DNA from: Clostridium sp. CAG:253
GTDB lineage: Bacteria; Bacillota; Clostridia; Lachnospirales; Lachnospiraceae
NCBI GenBank assembly: GCA_000436755.1
Contig: FR887297.1
Span: 1,148-8,440 of the forward strand
Reading direction: 5' to 3'
DNA: 7,293 bases
Each line of letters begins with the position of its first letter. The first letter of the stretch is position 1. Positions 2,469 to 7,095 of this stretch are shown here, one piece after another. Made by a program: the position numbers and the translations under genes. The notes beneath the pieces are model-generated. The model worked only from the letters and a program-made list of their open reading frames with translations, was not told where the DNA came from and ran no database searches.

Positions 2469-2552
2469 GTCATGGAAGTGGCTATTATACGACAAATGGT
2501 CGGCTCCCAGCCTCCAACGCCATTTGCTGTATAATAATCCATCTTCCATGAC
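2469..2552 (+). other. Structured palindromic motif, compact copy (unknown RNA or mobile repeat)
   Basis: An imperfect inverted repeat folds on itself over 84 bases: outer arms 2469-2490 and 2529-2552 (CATGGAAG with CTTCCATG at the ends, TATTATAC with GTATAATA inside), a 3x3 internal loop GAC/GCT, then AAATGG/CCATTT, enclosing a small hairpin GGCT-CCC-AGCC. The core words CGAC, ATGG, CGGCTC, GCCTC and AACGCCATT-GCTG recur in the same order on the minus strand at 3814-3960, although the outer stems have different sequences. No known family recognised. The strand of a functional RNA is not established; plus is given because the core words read this way here. Confidence 0.6.
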
Positions 2553-2571
2553 TGTATATATAAAAGCAAAA

Positions 2572-2646
2572 AGAAAAGCACCCTTTATCAACCATAATGG
2601 TGTATAATGTAAGTGTTCAAACCACATTAAAAAGGAGTGCTTTTCT
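2572..2646 (+). promoter_or_regulatory. Transposase leader: promoter inside a hairpin that hides the ribosome site
   Basis: AGAAAAGCAC-C-CTTT (2572-2586) pairs with AAAG-GA-GTGCTTTTCT (2631-2646). The right arm contains the transposase ribosome site AAGGAG (2632-2637). A -10 like TATAAT lies at 2603-2608, between the arms, with only a poor -35. A transcript started from this -10 lacks the left arm and can be translated; a transcript entering from outside carries both arms and would be folded shut. This arrangement is known from other insertion sequences as protection from external transcription. Confidence 0.5.
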
Positions 2647-3800
2647 CTGAAAATAATAACACAAATTTCCATGTTTGACGATACCCAAAATGAAAATCTT
2701 GGAGATTTAGAAAGATTACAAAAAGTTTTTGACAATCTTCCTGATGAAAAATTAATACGAAGATTAAAAGAAAAACGAGGAAAAGGCAGAAATGAATGGT
2801 CTGTAGAAGCTATGTAGAATTCTTTTATAGCAAGCTTTATATTTGACCATGACTCTATTGCAAGTCTTTTAAGAGAATTAAACAGAAACAGCCAGCTCCG
2901 CATAATCTGCGGATTTCAACCACACATATACTCTGTACTGACAGATAAAAAAGATGAGTATGGAAAAAGGATAAGTGAAAGTCGATATAAACTGGCTCCA
3001 ACAGCAAGTGCATATACAAACTTTTTGAATAATTTAAAGGAATGTGAGCAGGAATCAAGAGAAATGTTTGATACACTTGTAAAATATATGTATGAAAACC
3101 TTAACGATTTCGGTGAGATTATGGCAGCGGATGGAAAAGCCATACAAAGTTATGCAGGAAAAATTTCAAAGAAAAACAGCGGCAACAAAGGAGAGAGGGA
3201 TGCTGACTGGTGCAGAAAAGAATACACAATAACAAAACCTAACGGTGAAAAAGTGGTAAAAACAAAGAAATGGTTTGGATTTCGTCTGCATCTTTTATCA
3301 GATGCAACATATGAACTGCCGGTTGATTATGAAGTGACAAAAGCATCGAACAGTGAACTTAAAGAAACAGAAAAACTGTTAGATAACATAAAAGAAAAAA
3401 ATCCTAAAAAGTTGGAAAAGTGTATTACATAACAGACGGTGGTGAGAAAATATAATTAGTATATAAGGGGTATGATAAAAGCAGGGACAGTCATAGATAT
3501 GTTTTTCATCCGAAATATCATAATAAAAGAATATTCAGAATACCATTGAAAACGGATACACGTATATTTACAAAAGTAGCAGGAAATTCAAAGAAATGGA
3601 GAAGATTATATAAAAAAAGAACAAGTATTGAAAGAGTAAACGGACGGATAGACCGTGCTTTTCAATTTGAAAAGCATACGATAAGAGGATTAAAAAAAAT
3701 GAAAATGTTTCTTACAGTTACCTTTATAATACAGCTTGCATTAGCTAAGGCAAAAATAGAATCAGGAATAACAAATGGACTGGCAATGTATACTGCATAA
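2647..3800 (+). pseudogene. Transposase with DDE domain, multiply broken
   Basis: Translation shows a family often annotated as IS4/IS1182-like transposase: N-terminal ISMFDD...LPDEKL...RNEWSVEAM, and C-terminal TDTRIFTKVAG...RLYKKRTSIERVNGRIDRAF...TIRGLKKMK. The catalytic acids are visible: first Asp in ADGKA (3130-3132), second Asp in ITDGG (3435-3437), Glu in SIERVNGR (3630-3632). It is dead by several lesions: the expected start is CTG at 2647 (9 bases after AAGGAG); an amber codon TAG at 2815 stands where the family usually has Trp (AMW); a frameshift near 3420 gives a TAA at 3430; in the second frame another TAA at 3453 follows TDGG; and about 50 residues normally found between TDGG and the GYDKSRD block are missing. 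The two remaining open parts, up to 3432 and from 3456 to 3800, cannot make an active enzyme. Confidence 0.88.
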
Positions 3801-3813
3801 AAATATGTAAACA

Positions 3814-3960
3814 GCAGAGATTAATATAAACTTTTCAGCGAATGGCGTTAGAATGTCAGTCAGTACTTAGTGTGCGTTTTTTTGCACACTTATGTACTGC
3901 TACTGATATTCTCCGAGGCGAGAGCCGTCCATGAGTCGGAAAGTTTATATCAATCTCTGC
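3814..3960 (-). other. Structured palindromic motif, extended copy (unknown RNA or mobile repeat)
   Basis: Outer arms 3814-3836 and 3939-3960 pair over about 22 bases with one mismatch and one bulge (GCAGAGATT with AATCTCTGC at the tips). Read on the minus strand the core is CGAC-TC-ATGG, CGGC-TCTC-GCC-TC, then an extra hairpin arm, then AACGCCATTCGCTG: the same words in the same order as at 2469-2552. The extra arm (3850-3912) is itself a three-step stem: AGAAT-TCAGT with ACTGA-ATTCT, CAGTAC/GTACTG, GTGTGC/GCACAC around an A/T-run loop. It lies just after the transposase stop and before the toxin locus. No coding capacity seen. Confidence 0.6.
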
Positions 3961-3989
3961 GTTAAAGTGCCACAGCGAAAATAATTCTC

Positions 3990-4018
3990 AAAAAGGGCAC
4001 TTGATTTCTCAAGTACCC
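3990..4018 (-). terminator. Leftward terminator, possibly the distal end of the toxin transcript
   Basis: Stem GGGCACTTGA (3995-4004) with TCAAGTACCC (4009-4018), loop of four. On the minus strand all ten pairs form, one as G-U, and the stem is followed by TTTTTG. On the plus strand the same position is a C-A mismatch and there is no U-tract, which supports leftward use. It also contains the -35 of the rightward antisense RNA promoter. Confidence 0.6.
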
Positions 4019-4029
4019 CATTGTATAAT
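4001..4029 (+). promoter_or_regulatory. Promoter of the antisense RNA
   Basis: -35 TTGATT (4001-4006), 17-base spacer, perfect -10 TATAAT (4024-4029) with TTG just before it. Predicted start near 4036. No rightward gene follows, only a short stretch ending in a terminator, so the product should be a small RNA. Confidence 0.65.
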
Positions 4030-4035
4030 CTAATT

Positions 4036-4133
4036 AGAAAGGTAATCGGATGTAATATCCGATTTTGCCCTCAGTAAGATACAAACATAAAAATAGCATC
4101 TAACTTTGGTCGGTTGGGATGCTATTTCTTTTT
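4036..4133 (+). ncRNA. Putative antisense RNA antitoxin (about 100 nt) of a type I toxin-antitoxin pair
   Basis: It has its own promoter (4001-4029), a 5' hairpin ATCGGAT/ATCCGAT (4045-4063) with a five-base loop, and ends at the terminator at 4089-4133. It converges on the small peptide gene at 4122-4208 and is complementary to the last codons and 3' untranslated part of that mRNA, about 45-50 bases if the toxin transcript stops at the shared terminator, all of the RNA if it runs to 3990. This is the arrangement of txpA/RatA-type systems. The shared stem loop contains U-U-G-G/U-U-U-G words that fit the YUNR U-turn motif that speeds pairing of sense and antisense loops. Start and end are predicted, not measured. 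Confidence 0.55.
4089..4133. terminator. Bidirectional terminator shared by toxin mRNA and antisense RNA
   Basis: Stem AAATAGCATC (4091-4100) with GATGCTATTT (4118-4127), 17-base loop. Rightward it is followed by CTTTTTATT, leftward by TTATG after TTT, so both convergent transcripts can end here. The toxin stop codon (4122-4124) lies within the stem. Confidence 0.7.
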
Positions 4134-4208
4134 ATTATTATGATTGTCTATGTAAGACAGTGCCGCAAAAATCACCAACACAAGAGTAAGAACTTCAAGC
4201 GTATTCAT
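4122..4208 (-). CDS. Small holin-like type I toxin peptide (28 aa)
   Basis: ATG at 4208, stop at 4122, preceded by AAAGGAGG. The peptide starts MNTLEVLTLVLVIFAALSY, one hydrophobic segment (about residues 4-19) with an acidic residue near the start, followed by a polar tail rich in Asn and ending in KKK. This is the pattern of the putative holin-like toxin group (Hol_Tox-type; TxpA/BsrG-like): a short acidic/polar start, one membrane helix and a charged Lys tail, expected to insert in the cell membrane and depolarise it when over-produced. It has its own promoter (4279-4308), a leader that can hide its ribosome site, and a convergent antisense RNA over the 3' end. The codon run is intact although the neighbouring transposase is decayed. 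Family membership is by pattern, not by a search; toxicity is inferred. Confidence 0.75.
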   Translation of the reverse strand: MNTLEVLTLVLVIFAALSYIDNHNNKKK

Positions 4209-4245
4209 AGGGCATCACCCTCCTTTGTAGACTAGAGGGCATCAC
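4209..4245 (-). promoter_or_regulatory. Toxin leader with repeat that can pair with the ribosome site
   Basis: AGGGCATCAC occurs twice (4209-4218 and 4236-4245). In the mRNA the upstream copy presents GCCCTC, which can pair with GAGGG of the ribosome site (AAAGGAGGG) across a loop of about 12 bases. The ribosome site could therefore be shut in the folded mRNA, as known for several type I toxins. The effect is predicted only. Confidence 0.45.
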
Positions 4246-4278
4246 ATAAACGGAAAATCACATCCATCATTCTTCTAA

Positions 4279-4308
4279 ATTATACAATGTCAGTATAACA
4301 TAACACAA
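4279..4308 (-). promoter_or_regulatory. Toxin promoter
   Basis: Minus strand: -35 TTGTGT (4308 to 4303), 18-base spacer, perfect -10 TATAAT (4284 to 4279). Predicted start near 4272, giving a leader of about 64 bases. The -35 is weaker than that of the antisense RNA, in keeping with an antitoxin made in excess. Confidence 0.6.
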
Positions 4309-4320
4309 CCAGAGATACAA

Positions 4321-4356
4321 ATAAAAATAAGCTACGTAGCAACGACTGACAGCTTA
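4321..4356 (-). terminator. Possible present-day terminator of spmA
   Basis: TAAGCT (4328-4333) and AGCTTA (4351-4356) form the base of a stem followed leftward by TTTTTATTTG; inside lies the perfect palindrome GCTACGTAGC (4331-4340), an alternative fold. It is about 60 bases past the spmA stop and just upstream of the toxin promoter. The stem is short, so some readthrough from spmA into the toxin locus is possible. Confidence 0.4.
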
Positions 4357-4417: not shown

Positions 4418-5035
4418 TCATAAACGTTTTTTCCTGCATGCAATCTTGCAAAAAACAACTGCTACCAGTGTACTCACCCCCGTTGCTATAAGTCCCGGAA
4501 CGACTATCCCCACCGGATTTACACTGCCATACTGACTTCTATACGCTATTATGTTTACCGGTATCAACTGAAGCGATGATATATTTATTACAAGGAATGT
4601 GCACATTTCATTACTTGCTCTTAATTTCACTTTTGATATATCAACATTTTTTTCCACAAGGCGTGCACGTTCTATCTTTGCCATCTCCTTTATTGCTTTC
4701 AGTCCCATAGGTGTCGCTGCCCAGCCAAGACCAAGTATATTTGCAACCATATTTGCCGTTATATATTCATTTACCACATGCTTCTCATCAATTTCAGGAA
4801 ATAAAAAACGTACCATCGGAGACAATAATTTTGTCATTTTATCCATAAGTCCGGACTGCCTTGCGACCTCCATTATTCCGCACCACATAGCCATAACGCC
4901 AAGCATTGTTATCGCAAGTGAAACGGCTTCCCCCGAACTGTCAATAATAGAATCTGACAAAGCTTTCGCCTGACCACATGCCACACCATACGATAATCCC
5001 CCAAGTATCATAAATGCCCATATATAATTAAGCAT
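4418..5035 (-). CDS. spmA: Spore maturation protein A, nucleoside-recognition (Gate) membrane protein
   Basis: 205 aa from the ATG at 5035, which has GGAGGTG 4-5 bases upstream. An in-frame TTG at 5050 would add five residues but would place the ribosome site inside the gene, so it is less likely. The protein begins MLNYIWAFMILGGLSYG, a first membrane segment, and shows the family blocks WCGIMEVARQSGLMD (51-65), NMVANILGLGWAATPMGLKA (95-114) and TFLVINISSLQLIP (146-159), with a final membrane segment and basic end RKKRL. SpmA with SpmB is needed for core dehydration of endospores in Bacillus and Clostridium; the molecular activity is unsettled. Length is normal. Unlike the usual spmA-spmB order, no spmB follows: the DNA beyond the stop is the islet with toxin and IS. 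The last 25 bases of the gene region are duplicated at 2405-2429. Confidence 0.9.
   Translation of the reverse strand: MLNYIWAFMILGGLSYGVACGQAKALSDSIIDSSGEAVSLAITMLGVMAMWCGIMEVARQSGLMDKMTKLLSPMVRFLFPEIDEKHVVNEYITANMVANILGLGWAATPMGLKAIKEMAKIERARLVEKNVDISKVKLRASNEMCTFLVINISSLQLIPVNIIAYRSQYGSVNPVGIVVPGLIATGVSTLVAVVFCKIACRKKRL
4420..4444. repeat. Right copy of 25-bp direct repeat, at the spmA 3' end
   Basis: Identical to 2405-2429 and overlapping the final codons of spmA (from the stop codon through KIACRKKRL). With the left copy it brackets about 2 kb containing the IS, the structured motifs and the toxin locus. Looks like an attachment site pair at a gene end, though no integrase is present in the window. 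Confidence 0.75.
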
Positions 5036-5221: not shown

Positions 5222-6934
5222 TTACCCTATCAATACTTTTTTCCCTTCAAATGCAAATCCATAATGTTTTATCCTGTCTTTCTCTATCCCCAATTGTATG
5301 ATTTCATCATCATATCTCTTTTCTTCTATCTGCCTGTGAGCCGCTTTCACCGTATCTTTAAGCTGTTTTTCATCCTCACTGTCATATACCTTAAATTCAA
5401 TAACAATTGCCGGTAATTTTTTATTTTTTATATCCTTTGGCACCATCATTATATCATATCTTCCAAATCCACTTTCCCTATTTGATTTTATGATATAATT
5501 TTCTCTTTCTCCTACCATAATTCCTAATACAAAACCATGGTAAAAACGCTCAGGTTCAATATATTCCGATGGTTTATTTCCAACATCAAAATAACTAAAC
5601 GTCGCAAGTGCTATTTTATTCATAAAATAATTCATAGCTTTTATATCACCTTTTATCAAGGCAATAACAAATTCATCTGATGTGTTACGTATTGTTTTAA
5701 ACCATCCACTTATCAATTTTTGAAACATTATTCTTACTTCCAAATTTGTAAGACTAAGTTCATATTTTCCACTGATTTCACAGTTATCTGCATTTTCAAC
5801 TTTTAAATATCCACTTGCAAGAAACAAACTCCATATTGCATTTTCATCATAATCAAGCTGATTAAATACTATCTGCTCATCAATGTCAACTGTTATGCTT
5901 TCTCCATTTAAAAGCTTTTCCATTGACTTTTTAACTTCCGGCGAAGCACTTTGTATCAATTTCCCTGCAAGCTCATTTGAACTCGTATCGACCCAGTATG
6001 TTTTCAATTTTCTTTCATCAATAAAGTTTGTTATAGACCAAGGATTATATATATCTTTACTTTTGCCAAATGAAAATCCATCATACCATTGTTTTACATC
6101 TTCCTTTCTATCCGAAATTCCAACTTCATCCAATGCCTTAAAAACTTCATCCTCTGTAAATCCAAAACACGTTTCGTACATATTGCTTGTTGTCGATACT
6201 ATCCTCAAATTGTTCAAATCCGAAAACATGCTTTCTTTAGATATTCTGGTAATACCTGTCATTATTGCTCTGTCCAGATACGGGTTAGTCTTAAATGTTG
6301 CATTAAAGAAAACACGCATAAAACCTACCATTTCATCCCAATATCCTCCCAAATATGCTTCCTGAAGAGGTGTATCGTATTCGTCTAAAAAAATGAGTAC
6401 TTTTTTTCCATAATATCTTTCTAATAAAAATGACAAATTTTTTATCGCTCTGCAAATTACATCTTCAGAAATTTCTTTATTTATATTTGTATTGTTTGAA
6501 TACGCATCTAACGCCTTAAACACACCCTTTTCGGCATCTGTTATTTCATCTGTTTCAATTAAATATGAATGTGTTCTATATACATCACTTATAACAGATA
6601 TAATGCTATTTTTTGCATTTTTAAAATTATCGTCTTTTACATCAGCAAAACTTAAATTTATAACCGGATAAGTTCCCTGCAATTTTCTGTACTTCTCATC
6701 TGTCCATATTTCAAACTTTTCAAACAAATCTGCCCGATTCATATATTTATTTGAAAAAAAACAATTCAGCATACTCATATTTAATGTTTTTCCAAATCTT
6801 CTTGGTCTGGTAATAAGTGTAACATCGTCCTGAGACTCCCACCATTGTTTTATAAAATACGTTTTATCGACGTAAAAGCAATCGGACATTATCAACGACT
6901 CATAATTTTGTTTTCCAATTCCCACGGTATGCAT
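5222..6934 (-). CDS. AAA-ATPase-like protein with C-terminal PD-(D/E)XK nuclease-like domain
   Basis: 570 aa from the ATG at 6934, which has AGAGAGGA six bases upstream; an in-frame ATG at 6967 lacks a ribosome site. The start VGIGKQNYESLI...FYVDKTYFIKQW and the loop RPRRFGKT (43-50, Walker A-like) mark the AAA-ATPase-like family found in many copies in gut Clostridia and Bacteroidetes. Walker B is LIFLDEYDTPL (180-190). Further family blocks are TGITRISKESMFSDLNNL (227-244), WYDGFSFG (283-290) and YNPWSITNF (296-304). The C-terminal part has the nuclease-like signature FYHGFVLGIM (465-473), SGFGRYDIMMVP (488-499, Asp 494) and VIEFKV (511-516, Glu 513 and Lys 515). All expected catalytic residues are present, so the gene looks intact. 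The biological role of the family is unknown; roles in mobile DNA or defence have been suggested because of the domains. It stands alone, with a terminator after it. Confidence 0.9.
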   Translation of the reverse strand: MHTVGIGKQNYESLIMSDCFYVDKTYFIKQWWESQDDVTLITRPRRFGKTLNMSMLNCFFSNKYMNRADLFEKFEIWTDEKYRKLQGTYPVINLSFADVKDDNFKNAKNSIISVISDVYRTHSYLIETDEITDAEKGVFKALDAYSNNTNINKEISEDVICRAIKNLSFLLERYYGKKVLIFLDEYDTPLQEAYLGGYWDEMVGFMRVFFNATFKTNPYLDRAIMTGITRISKESMFSDLNNLRIVSTTSNMYETCFGFTEDEVFKALDEVGISDRKEDVKQWYDGFSFGKSKDIYNPWSITNFIDERKLKTYWVDTSSNELAGKLIQSASPEVKKSMEKLLNGESITVDIDEQIVFNQLDYDENAIWSLFLASGYLKVENADNCEISGKYELSLTNLEVRIMFQKLISGWFKTIRNTSDEFVIALIKGDIKAMNYFMNKIALATFSYFDVGNKPSEYIEPERFYHGFVLGIMVGERENYIIKSNRESGFGRYDIMMVPKDIKNKKLPAIVIEFKVYDSEDEKQLKDTVKAAHRQIEEKRYDDEIIQLGIEKDRIKHYGFAFEGKKVLIG

Positions 6935-7095
6935 AAATATCCTCTCTCCCTCAAAAATGACAGGCATACTGTATCAATATAACATTAACTTCCACACCAA
7001 AATATTAACAATACATTGATACATTACTCAGCCCATATTAAACCCATATTTTTATAAACATTTTAACATACCTGCATATGAATTACCATAAACAA
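6935..7095. promoter_or_regulatory. Intergenic region upstream of the ATPase gene with an inverted 9-bp repeat
   Basis: TGTATCAAT at 6970-6978 and its exact inverse ATTGATACA at 7015-7023 lie 36 bases apart, flanking the region where the promoter of the ATPase gene should be. ATACATT also occurs twice in tandem (7011-7024 area), and ATATGGG twice on the minus strand at about 7034-7051. I could not settle on one promoter; no clear terminator for the iron-sulfur gene was seen. Confidence 0.3.

Follow-up and report, generated by a model that had tools for sequence, protein, structure and literature searches.

Two folded motifs at the ends of a decayed insertion sequence and a family of palindromic interspersed repeats in Lachnospiraceae

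We analyzed a window of 7,293 nt from Clostridium sp. CAG:253 (the whole stretch of DNA studied here), in which two facing motifs, E1 and E2, lie on either side of a broken transposase gene. Our combined findings suggest that both motifs probably belong to a repeat family of Lachnospiraceae, palindromic and interspersed, built as a long hairpin with a conserved folded core. The repeat, which in one subfamily has IS1182-type ends and target duplications, is likely moved by such transposases and likely serves as an mRNA 3'-end hairpin. The observations given below establish the family, its pairing pattern and its copy number, the MITE ends and duplications of one subfamily, the existence of insertion sequence (IS) sites lacking E1 or E2, and a preference for one orientation after stop codons.

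E1 spans positions 2467-2554 of the window (plus strand) and E2 positions 3812-3962 (minus strand). Each begins with ACG, ends with CTG and consists of an outer stem (P1 and P1') around a core; the original prediction had placed the motifs correctly, and these are their full bounds. The words that it had reported in the same order at both positions (CGAC, ATGG, CGGCTC, GCCTC, AACGCCATT and GCTG) are indeed common to the two cores. Its description of a conserved core within different stems holds as well, but the copies also differ by a 64-nt inner arm of E2 (P4-P5-P6, positions 3851-3914, minus strand) that has no counterpart in E1. The core of E2 (positions 3838-3942, minus strand) comprises P2, P3 and this arm, with helices supported by covariation and a score of 74 bits against covariance model R1 (E2 being among the model's own input sequences), whereas the core of E1 (positions 2490-2529, plus strand) contains P2 and P3 only. 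In Butyribacter intestini TF01-11, another member of the Lachnospiraceae, E2 is found at the same site of a remnant of the same IS (locus L111), again without the 64-nt arm. The 40-nt core of E1 and that of the L111 copy are identical at 33 positions in a comparison free of gaps, compared with at most 23 in 2000 shuffles, so the word match is real. The outer stems of E1 and E2 have no sequence similarity to each other, yet both are well paired, as had been proposed: the folding energies are -40.2 kcal/mol for E1 (z -7.6) and -62.7 kcal/mol for E2 on its own strand (z -10.4), and none of 200 shuffles was as good in either case. Reading the sequences of E2 and L111 side by side, we found one stem pair changed on both sides from T-A to C-G and another changed from G.T to G-C.

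The further copies predicted for Lachnospiraceae are present in dozens of genomes. A loose-pattern scan of genome contigs returned at least 119 stretches, with one true relative (L111) among the matches listed. Using a covariance model built from 18 copies (threshold E <= 0.001, at most 27 candidates scored per genome), we detected the family in 62 genomes of a draw of 150 Lachnospiraceae. In a second search of 38 of these 62, in which as many as 106 candidates were scored, every genome matched, with 1-101 matches each, the highest copy numbers being 101 (genome G017) and 89 (G075). A draw across the whole class gave matches in 11 of 391 genomes at E <= 1e-6 and under stricter filters, four of which (G001, G023, G028 and G061) belong to the family draw. 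The B. intestini genome (G001) has 23 blastn matches to E2 and 18 sites with the inner-arm pattern, versus none with the reversed pattern; its copies have the same loops and differing stems. A pattern for arm-less copies was found in 2 of the 150 genomes, once as the known L111 copy and once in G108 in a sequence that does not fold that way, and arm-less copies are therefore rare or more divergent. Close neighbors (within 1.5 kb) formed 18 pairs at the loci examined, which are not a random sample: 13 pairs face each other, four point in the same direction and one points outward. E1 and E2 do face each other, as the original prediction stated, but in a recurrent layout rather than one special to the transposase. 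Genome G111 carries tandem arrays (L202 and L208) with spacings of 187 and ~278 nt and with still other terminal repeats.

No Rfam gathering score was reached in the window or over the copies at eight copy-bearing loci, which rules out a known Rfam family and agrees with the earlier view that none fits. The known-family matches found near copies, TwoAYGGAY (L215) and Clostridiales-1 (L217, below threshold), lie beside the copies and not on them. A phage- or plasmid-borne element was rejected, since at the sensitivity used no copy was found in viral contigs, phages or plasmids: two exact core patterns, which catch just 39 of 120 distinct cores, had no match in viral contigs; a looser E1-type pattern found 10 viral stretches, all without a model match at E <= 1 and without the stems; and single copies had no blastn match in phages or plasmids. 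We found no description of the repeat family in the literature searched, outside of which lie preprints, most subscription journals and the supplementary tables of PMC8040213 with their thousands of candidate RNAs.

The structure of the core is conserved across these copies. Model R1 gave 79 matches in 68 sources; three poor matches were dropped and the remainder thinned to 58 cores less than 85% identical, which were aligned by MAFFT without regard to structure (alignment A4). In the 26-pair structure (helices P2, P3, P4, P5 and P6), both partners have changed in 25 pairs; the compensated changes that had been predicted are seen in every helix. Pairing is found in 90.2% of cells, compared with 68.8% in shuffles, and the covariation score is 0.579, compared with 0.195 +/- 0.010 when shuffled and at most 0.135 in slid versions. 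Changes within the core pairs are two-sided in 350 cells and one-sided in 26; misregistration of outer P4 in subfamily A reduces the count in that part. Three unpaired elements are conserved: the loop of P3, a bulge of two bases (AG in CGUAGC/GACG) and the AUA/A loop separating P5 from P6, which is shortened in some copies. The core therefore combines covarying helices with conserved unpaired bases, as is expected of a structured non-coding RNA. In some copies (L316), the P6 arm is larger and contains additional hairpins. At positions 258-600 of L316, a MITE copy has a long insert in place of the P6 arm, apparently with several further hairpins nested in the hairpin.

The outer stems behave differently from the core. 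Starting from 135 copies, we removed five with short flanks, 12 with weak stem alignment and the redundant remainder; the 95 non-redundant stems have a median of 23 Watson-Crick pairs in P1, a value that leans to good stems because weak-stem copies were removed. P1 is unrelated between most copies. In genome G009, cores are up to 97% identical while the middles of P1 are wholly different and its ends alike. Seven copies with 21 pairs in register have a mean P1 identity of 0.82 in the outer six pairs, 0.37 in the middle ten and 1.00 in the inner five, with a mean core identity of 0.84 in an alignment in which one row is misregistered. However, where G203 and G358 (~86-94% identical) have copies at orthologous sites, three in all, P1 is nearly the same, with few changes and with pairing kept, so rapid divergence at a fixed site does not account for the private stem. 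The alternatives are transfer of the core from one hairpin to another, through insertion or gene conversion, and alteration of the stem during the formation of a new copy. P1 is partly common to the copies of G132 and is also shared within subfamily A of G001. Two sources for the stem were rejected: nearby DNA, since no source was found within 1 kb and longer matches were mostly to neighboring copies, and a palindrome belonging to the target, since the IS copy without E2 also lacks the stem of E2.

Evidence for mobility comes from subfamily A. Terminal repeats of the GGYRWTTGCGAAAC type were found in three of four genomes searched. They also bound a 1757-bp IS in G001 (L314), whose two reading frames both have weak matches to the IS1182 model, with DUF772 matched by one of them. 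The loci examined contain 22 distinct units with such repeats at their ends, of which 21 are 206-215 bp long and the other is the IS of L314. Exact direct repeats of 9-14 bp occur at the borders of 11 of the 22 units, the IS included, compared with 0 of 2000 random pairings. Subfamily A thus has terminal repeats in common with an autonomous element as well as target-site duplications, and is therefore a MITE (~210 bp) of the L314 transposon type. The IS of L314 itself has no core. Other copies have different terminal repeats, or the ACG and CTG borders alone, and neither of the two MITE features was found at E1 or E2.

E1 and E2 lie at the ends of a decayed IS1182-type IS (positions 2569-3987, plus strand, with its left end continuing to ~2440), which was recognized by homology to L265, L266, L267, L111 and L268 and by its transposase pieces. 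The transposase gene between the two motifs (~2645-3800) is interrupted by stop codons and changes of frame. Fragments of it match DDE_Tnp_1 and DDE_Tnp_1_6, and their best NCBIfam model is IS1182 (NF033551), at 26.8 and 34.4 bits, which is far below the cut-off of 270 for the whole protein, as would be the case for fragments. Empty sites in relatives, another expectation of the original prediction, were found: E1 is missing at the left end of the related copies L266 and L267, and E2 is missing from L268, with a clean junction, but present in L111. In L266, a different family member (67.5 bits with model R1) with other stems sits at the place of E2. Read by eye in this IS comparison, the E1 and E2 junctions revealed no target duplication, and TGCGAAAC was not found in the window, E1 and E2 being without the subfamily A ends. 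The transposase piece had no relative among the viral contigs searched, and the IS with E1 and E2 matched no plasmid and, in phages, had a single match, to the neighboring module only. An IS1182-type transposase would act in trans on the hairpins, and E1 and E2 may have arrived by the same route as subfamily A.

We then considered where copies lie relative to genes, using 116 distinct copies of the 135 that have at least 450 nt on both sides and simple open reading frame calls of at least 100 codons. For 67 of the 116, the left neighbor is a gene on the same strand, with a median distance of 54 nt from stop codon to core. In 53 copies the core is preceded by a same-strand stop codon no more than 75 nt away, and in the other 63 it is not; the mirror arrangement has 14 of 58 at such a short distance (53 vs 14, p 1.8e-6). 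In the close copies, little sequence separates the stop codon from the outer stem. Pfam families were matched by 19 of 20 upstream proteins, in one case with a score below the cut-off, and many of the domains run to the end of the protein; the set includes DnaB, DNA polymerase I, RF-1 and UvrB. The upstream genes are intact hosts and not captured cassettes. Terminator-like sites are not enriched after copies (4 of 46 vs 20 of 138, with a detector that finds few in controls too), and we therefore rejected the element as a terminator. This position, together with analogy to known repeats, suggests that the hairpin likely acts at mRNA 3' ends. Copies would be transcribed together with the preceding gene, and the transcribed hairpin, like those of REP and ERIC, could control the ends or the decay of mRNAs.

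Whether pairing is kept in RNA or in DNA can be approached through wobble pairs, since selection on the RNA strand should favor G.U over A.C. Raw counts in the core were 46 G.U and 25 A.C, but without the misregistered P4 columns (38-41) and the pair of columns 51-98, which has 11 U.G and no C.A, they were 12 and 13. In P1, a strict alignment gave 35 G.U vs 68 A.C (p 0.0015) and a looser one 114 vs 94. Wobble is therefore not tolerated above A.C in the core outside these columns (12 vs 13) or in strictly aligned P1 (35 vs 68), and the pairing may be kept at the DNA level. This is the main result against an RNA reading. Together with the excess of two-sided changes, the wobble counts fit selection on RNA no better than DNA-level pairing, through hairpin recognition or template-switch correction. 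The original prediction had proposed either a structured RNA not yet described or a mobile palindromic repeat; the mobile repeat is the better supported half, while for the RNA half wobble pairs are not favored over A.C, yet copies lie in sense position after stops.

It is possible, though on the unlikely side, that the hairpin is kept for its DNA form, with a structure-specific protein or transposase reading the extruded hairpin (as a cruciform or single strand) and the site after the stop codon merely tolerated or targeted. Such a role would fit covariation confined to Watson-Crick pairs (350 two-sided vs 26 one-sided), the lack of a G.U excess over A.C, the private stems around near-identical cores and the target duplications. 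However, the U.G pairs at 51-98 are as expected for RNA of this strand, and the strand bias toward upstream genes needs an extra cause. Tentatively, and with considerable doubt, we also considered a mobile core recognized by its fold. A core of ~100 nt, read by shape, would pass between long genomic hairpins, so that stems are private and cores near-identical; several unrelated transposons would have acquired it, and it would have been placed downstream of stop codons as a common 3'-end module of many housekeeping genes.

We regard it as improbable that the repeat is a structured non-coding RNA with its own regulatory or trans function, spread by transposition and with stems covarying for RNA folding. 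The conserved loops and bulges, the covarying helices throughout the core and the sense position after genes would suit it, but there is no Rfam match, G.U is not favored, and ~100 copies with MITE ends are typical of repeats. Similarly improbable, in our judgment, is covariation without selection, in which template switching during replication perfects the palindromes of a functionless selfish repeat. This would explain why one-sided changes are few and why two-sided changes separate orthologous copies as well as E2 and L111, but unpaired bases that are invariant across 58 diverse cores call for selection on something, and the strand bias after stop codons also argues against it. Integron attC sites likewise keep their fold more than their sequence, have conserved unpaired bases and sit after a stop codon. 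A cassette recombination site of this kind, recognized by its fold behind the stop codon of each gene, would share these features and the fixed orientation of the repeat, but is highly improbable, since intact housekeeping genes rather than cassettes lie upstream, no cassette arrays were seen, tandem arrays occur in one genome only (G111) among the loci examined, and attC boxes are not consistently present.

The favored reading, a mobile palindromic repeat that likely acts as an mRNA 3'-end hairpin, places the family near several known systems. Like the repeats of REP/RAYT systems, copies are multicopy palindromes outside genes after stop codons. In those systems a RAYT-type Y1 transposase is linked to the repeats; the linked transposases identified here are of the DDE/IS1182 type. 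REP hairpins are described as protecting mRNA 3' ends, ending transcription or, at most 15 nt from a stop codon, stalling ribosomes and leading to trans-translation (PMC5082802), and REPs are insertion targets of IS elements (PMC1525189). REP/BIME (PU) elements are, similarly, short multicopy palindromes after stop codons, but the present repeat is much longer (150-215 nt), has a branched core conserved by structure rather than by sequence and private outer stems, and in one subfamily has IS1182-type ends. Stem-loop repeat families including ERIC, NEMIS, YPAL and bcr1 resemble it in being intergenic, MITE-sized and folding, but in the accessible part of the source they are single-species families defined by sequence models (PMC2267715), whereas here the stems turn over and the fold stays across many species. 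No Lachnospiraceae appear among the Firmicutes rows examined in the same paper (PMC2267715). Subfamily A resembles IS1182-family MITEs in having the terminal repeats and 9-14 bp duplications of the L314 IS; unlike them, it is not a shortened IS, as the IS has no core, and E1 and E2 do not have these ends. The kind of repeat is known (REP, ERIC, NEMIS, YPAL, bcr1; PMC2267715), and as far as our searches show, this family is set apart by its fold conservation, private stems, IS1182-type ends and sense position after stops.

A repeat that is abundant in a large bacterial family and apparently unnamed lies beside core genes such as dnaB, polA, prfA and uvrB. If its hairpins act on mRNA 3' ends, one mobile family would have rewired many transcript ends at once. 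Private stems around near-identical cores also constitute a natural experiment on how palindromes are maintained, whether by RNA selection, DNA selection or template-switch correction, and the ratio of G.U to A.C can separate these modes.

Several other features were observed in the window. A separate repeated module at positions 3988-4330, matched in 12 of the 150 family genomes and with G001 copies at 85% identity, contains a minus-strand reading frame, small and hydrophobic (MNTLEVLTLVLVIFAALSYIDNHNNKKK), that is type I toxin-like in appearance, and has a weak ctRNA_pT181 match at 4079-4141 (29.9 bits vs a gathering score of 56). A 40-nt direct repeat (positions 2405-2444 and 4420-4459, 85% identity), which is the 3' end of a spmA-like gene, brackets the IS and the toxin-like module and may be a long target duplication. 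Positions 5222-6967 hold an AAA-ATPase_like/PDDEXK_9 gene of a multicopy family that is absent by blastn from the orthologous spmA region of G001 (L264), where the flanking genes alone match. Finally, positions 3-806 and 918-2018 hold two similar, adjoining minus-strand genes that are secreted-protein-like, the second with a PT-rich repeat.
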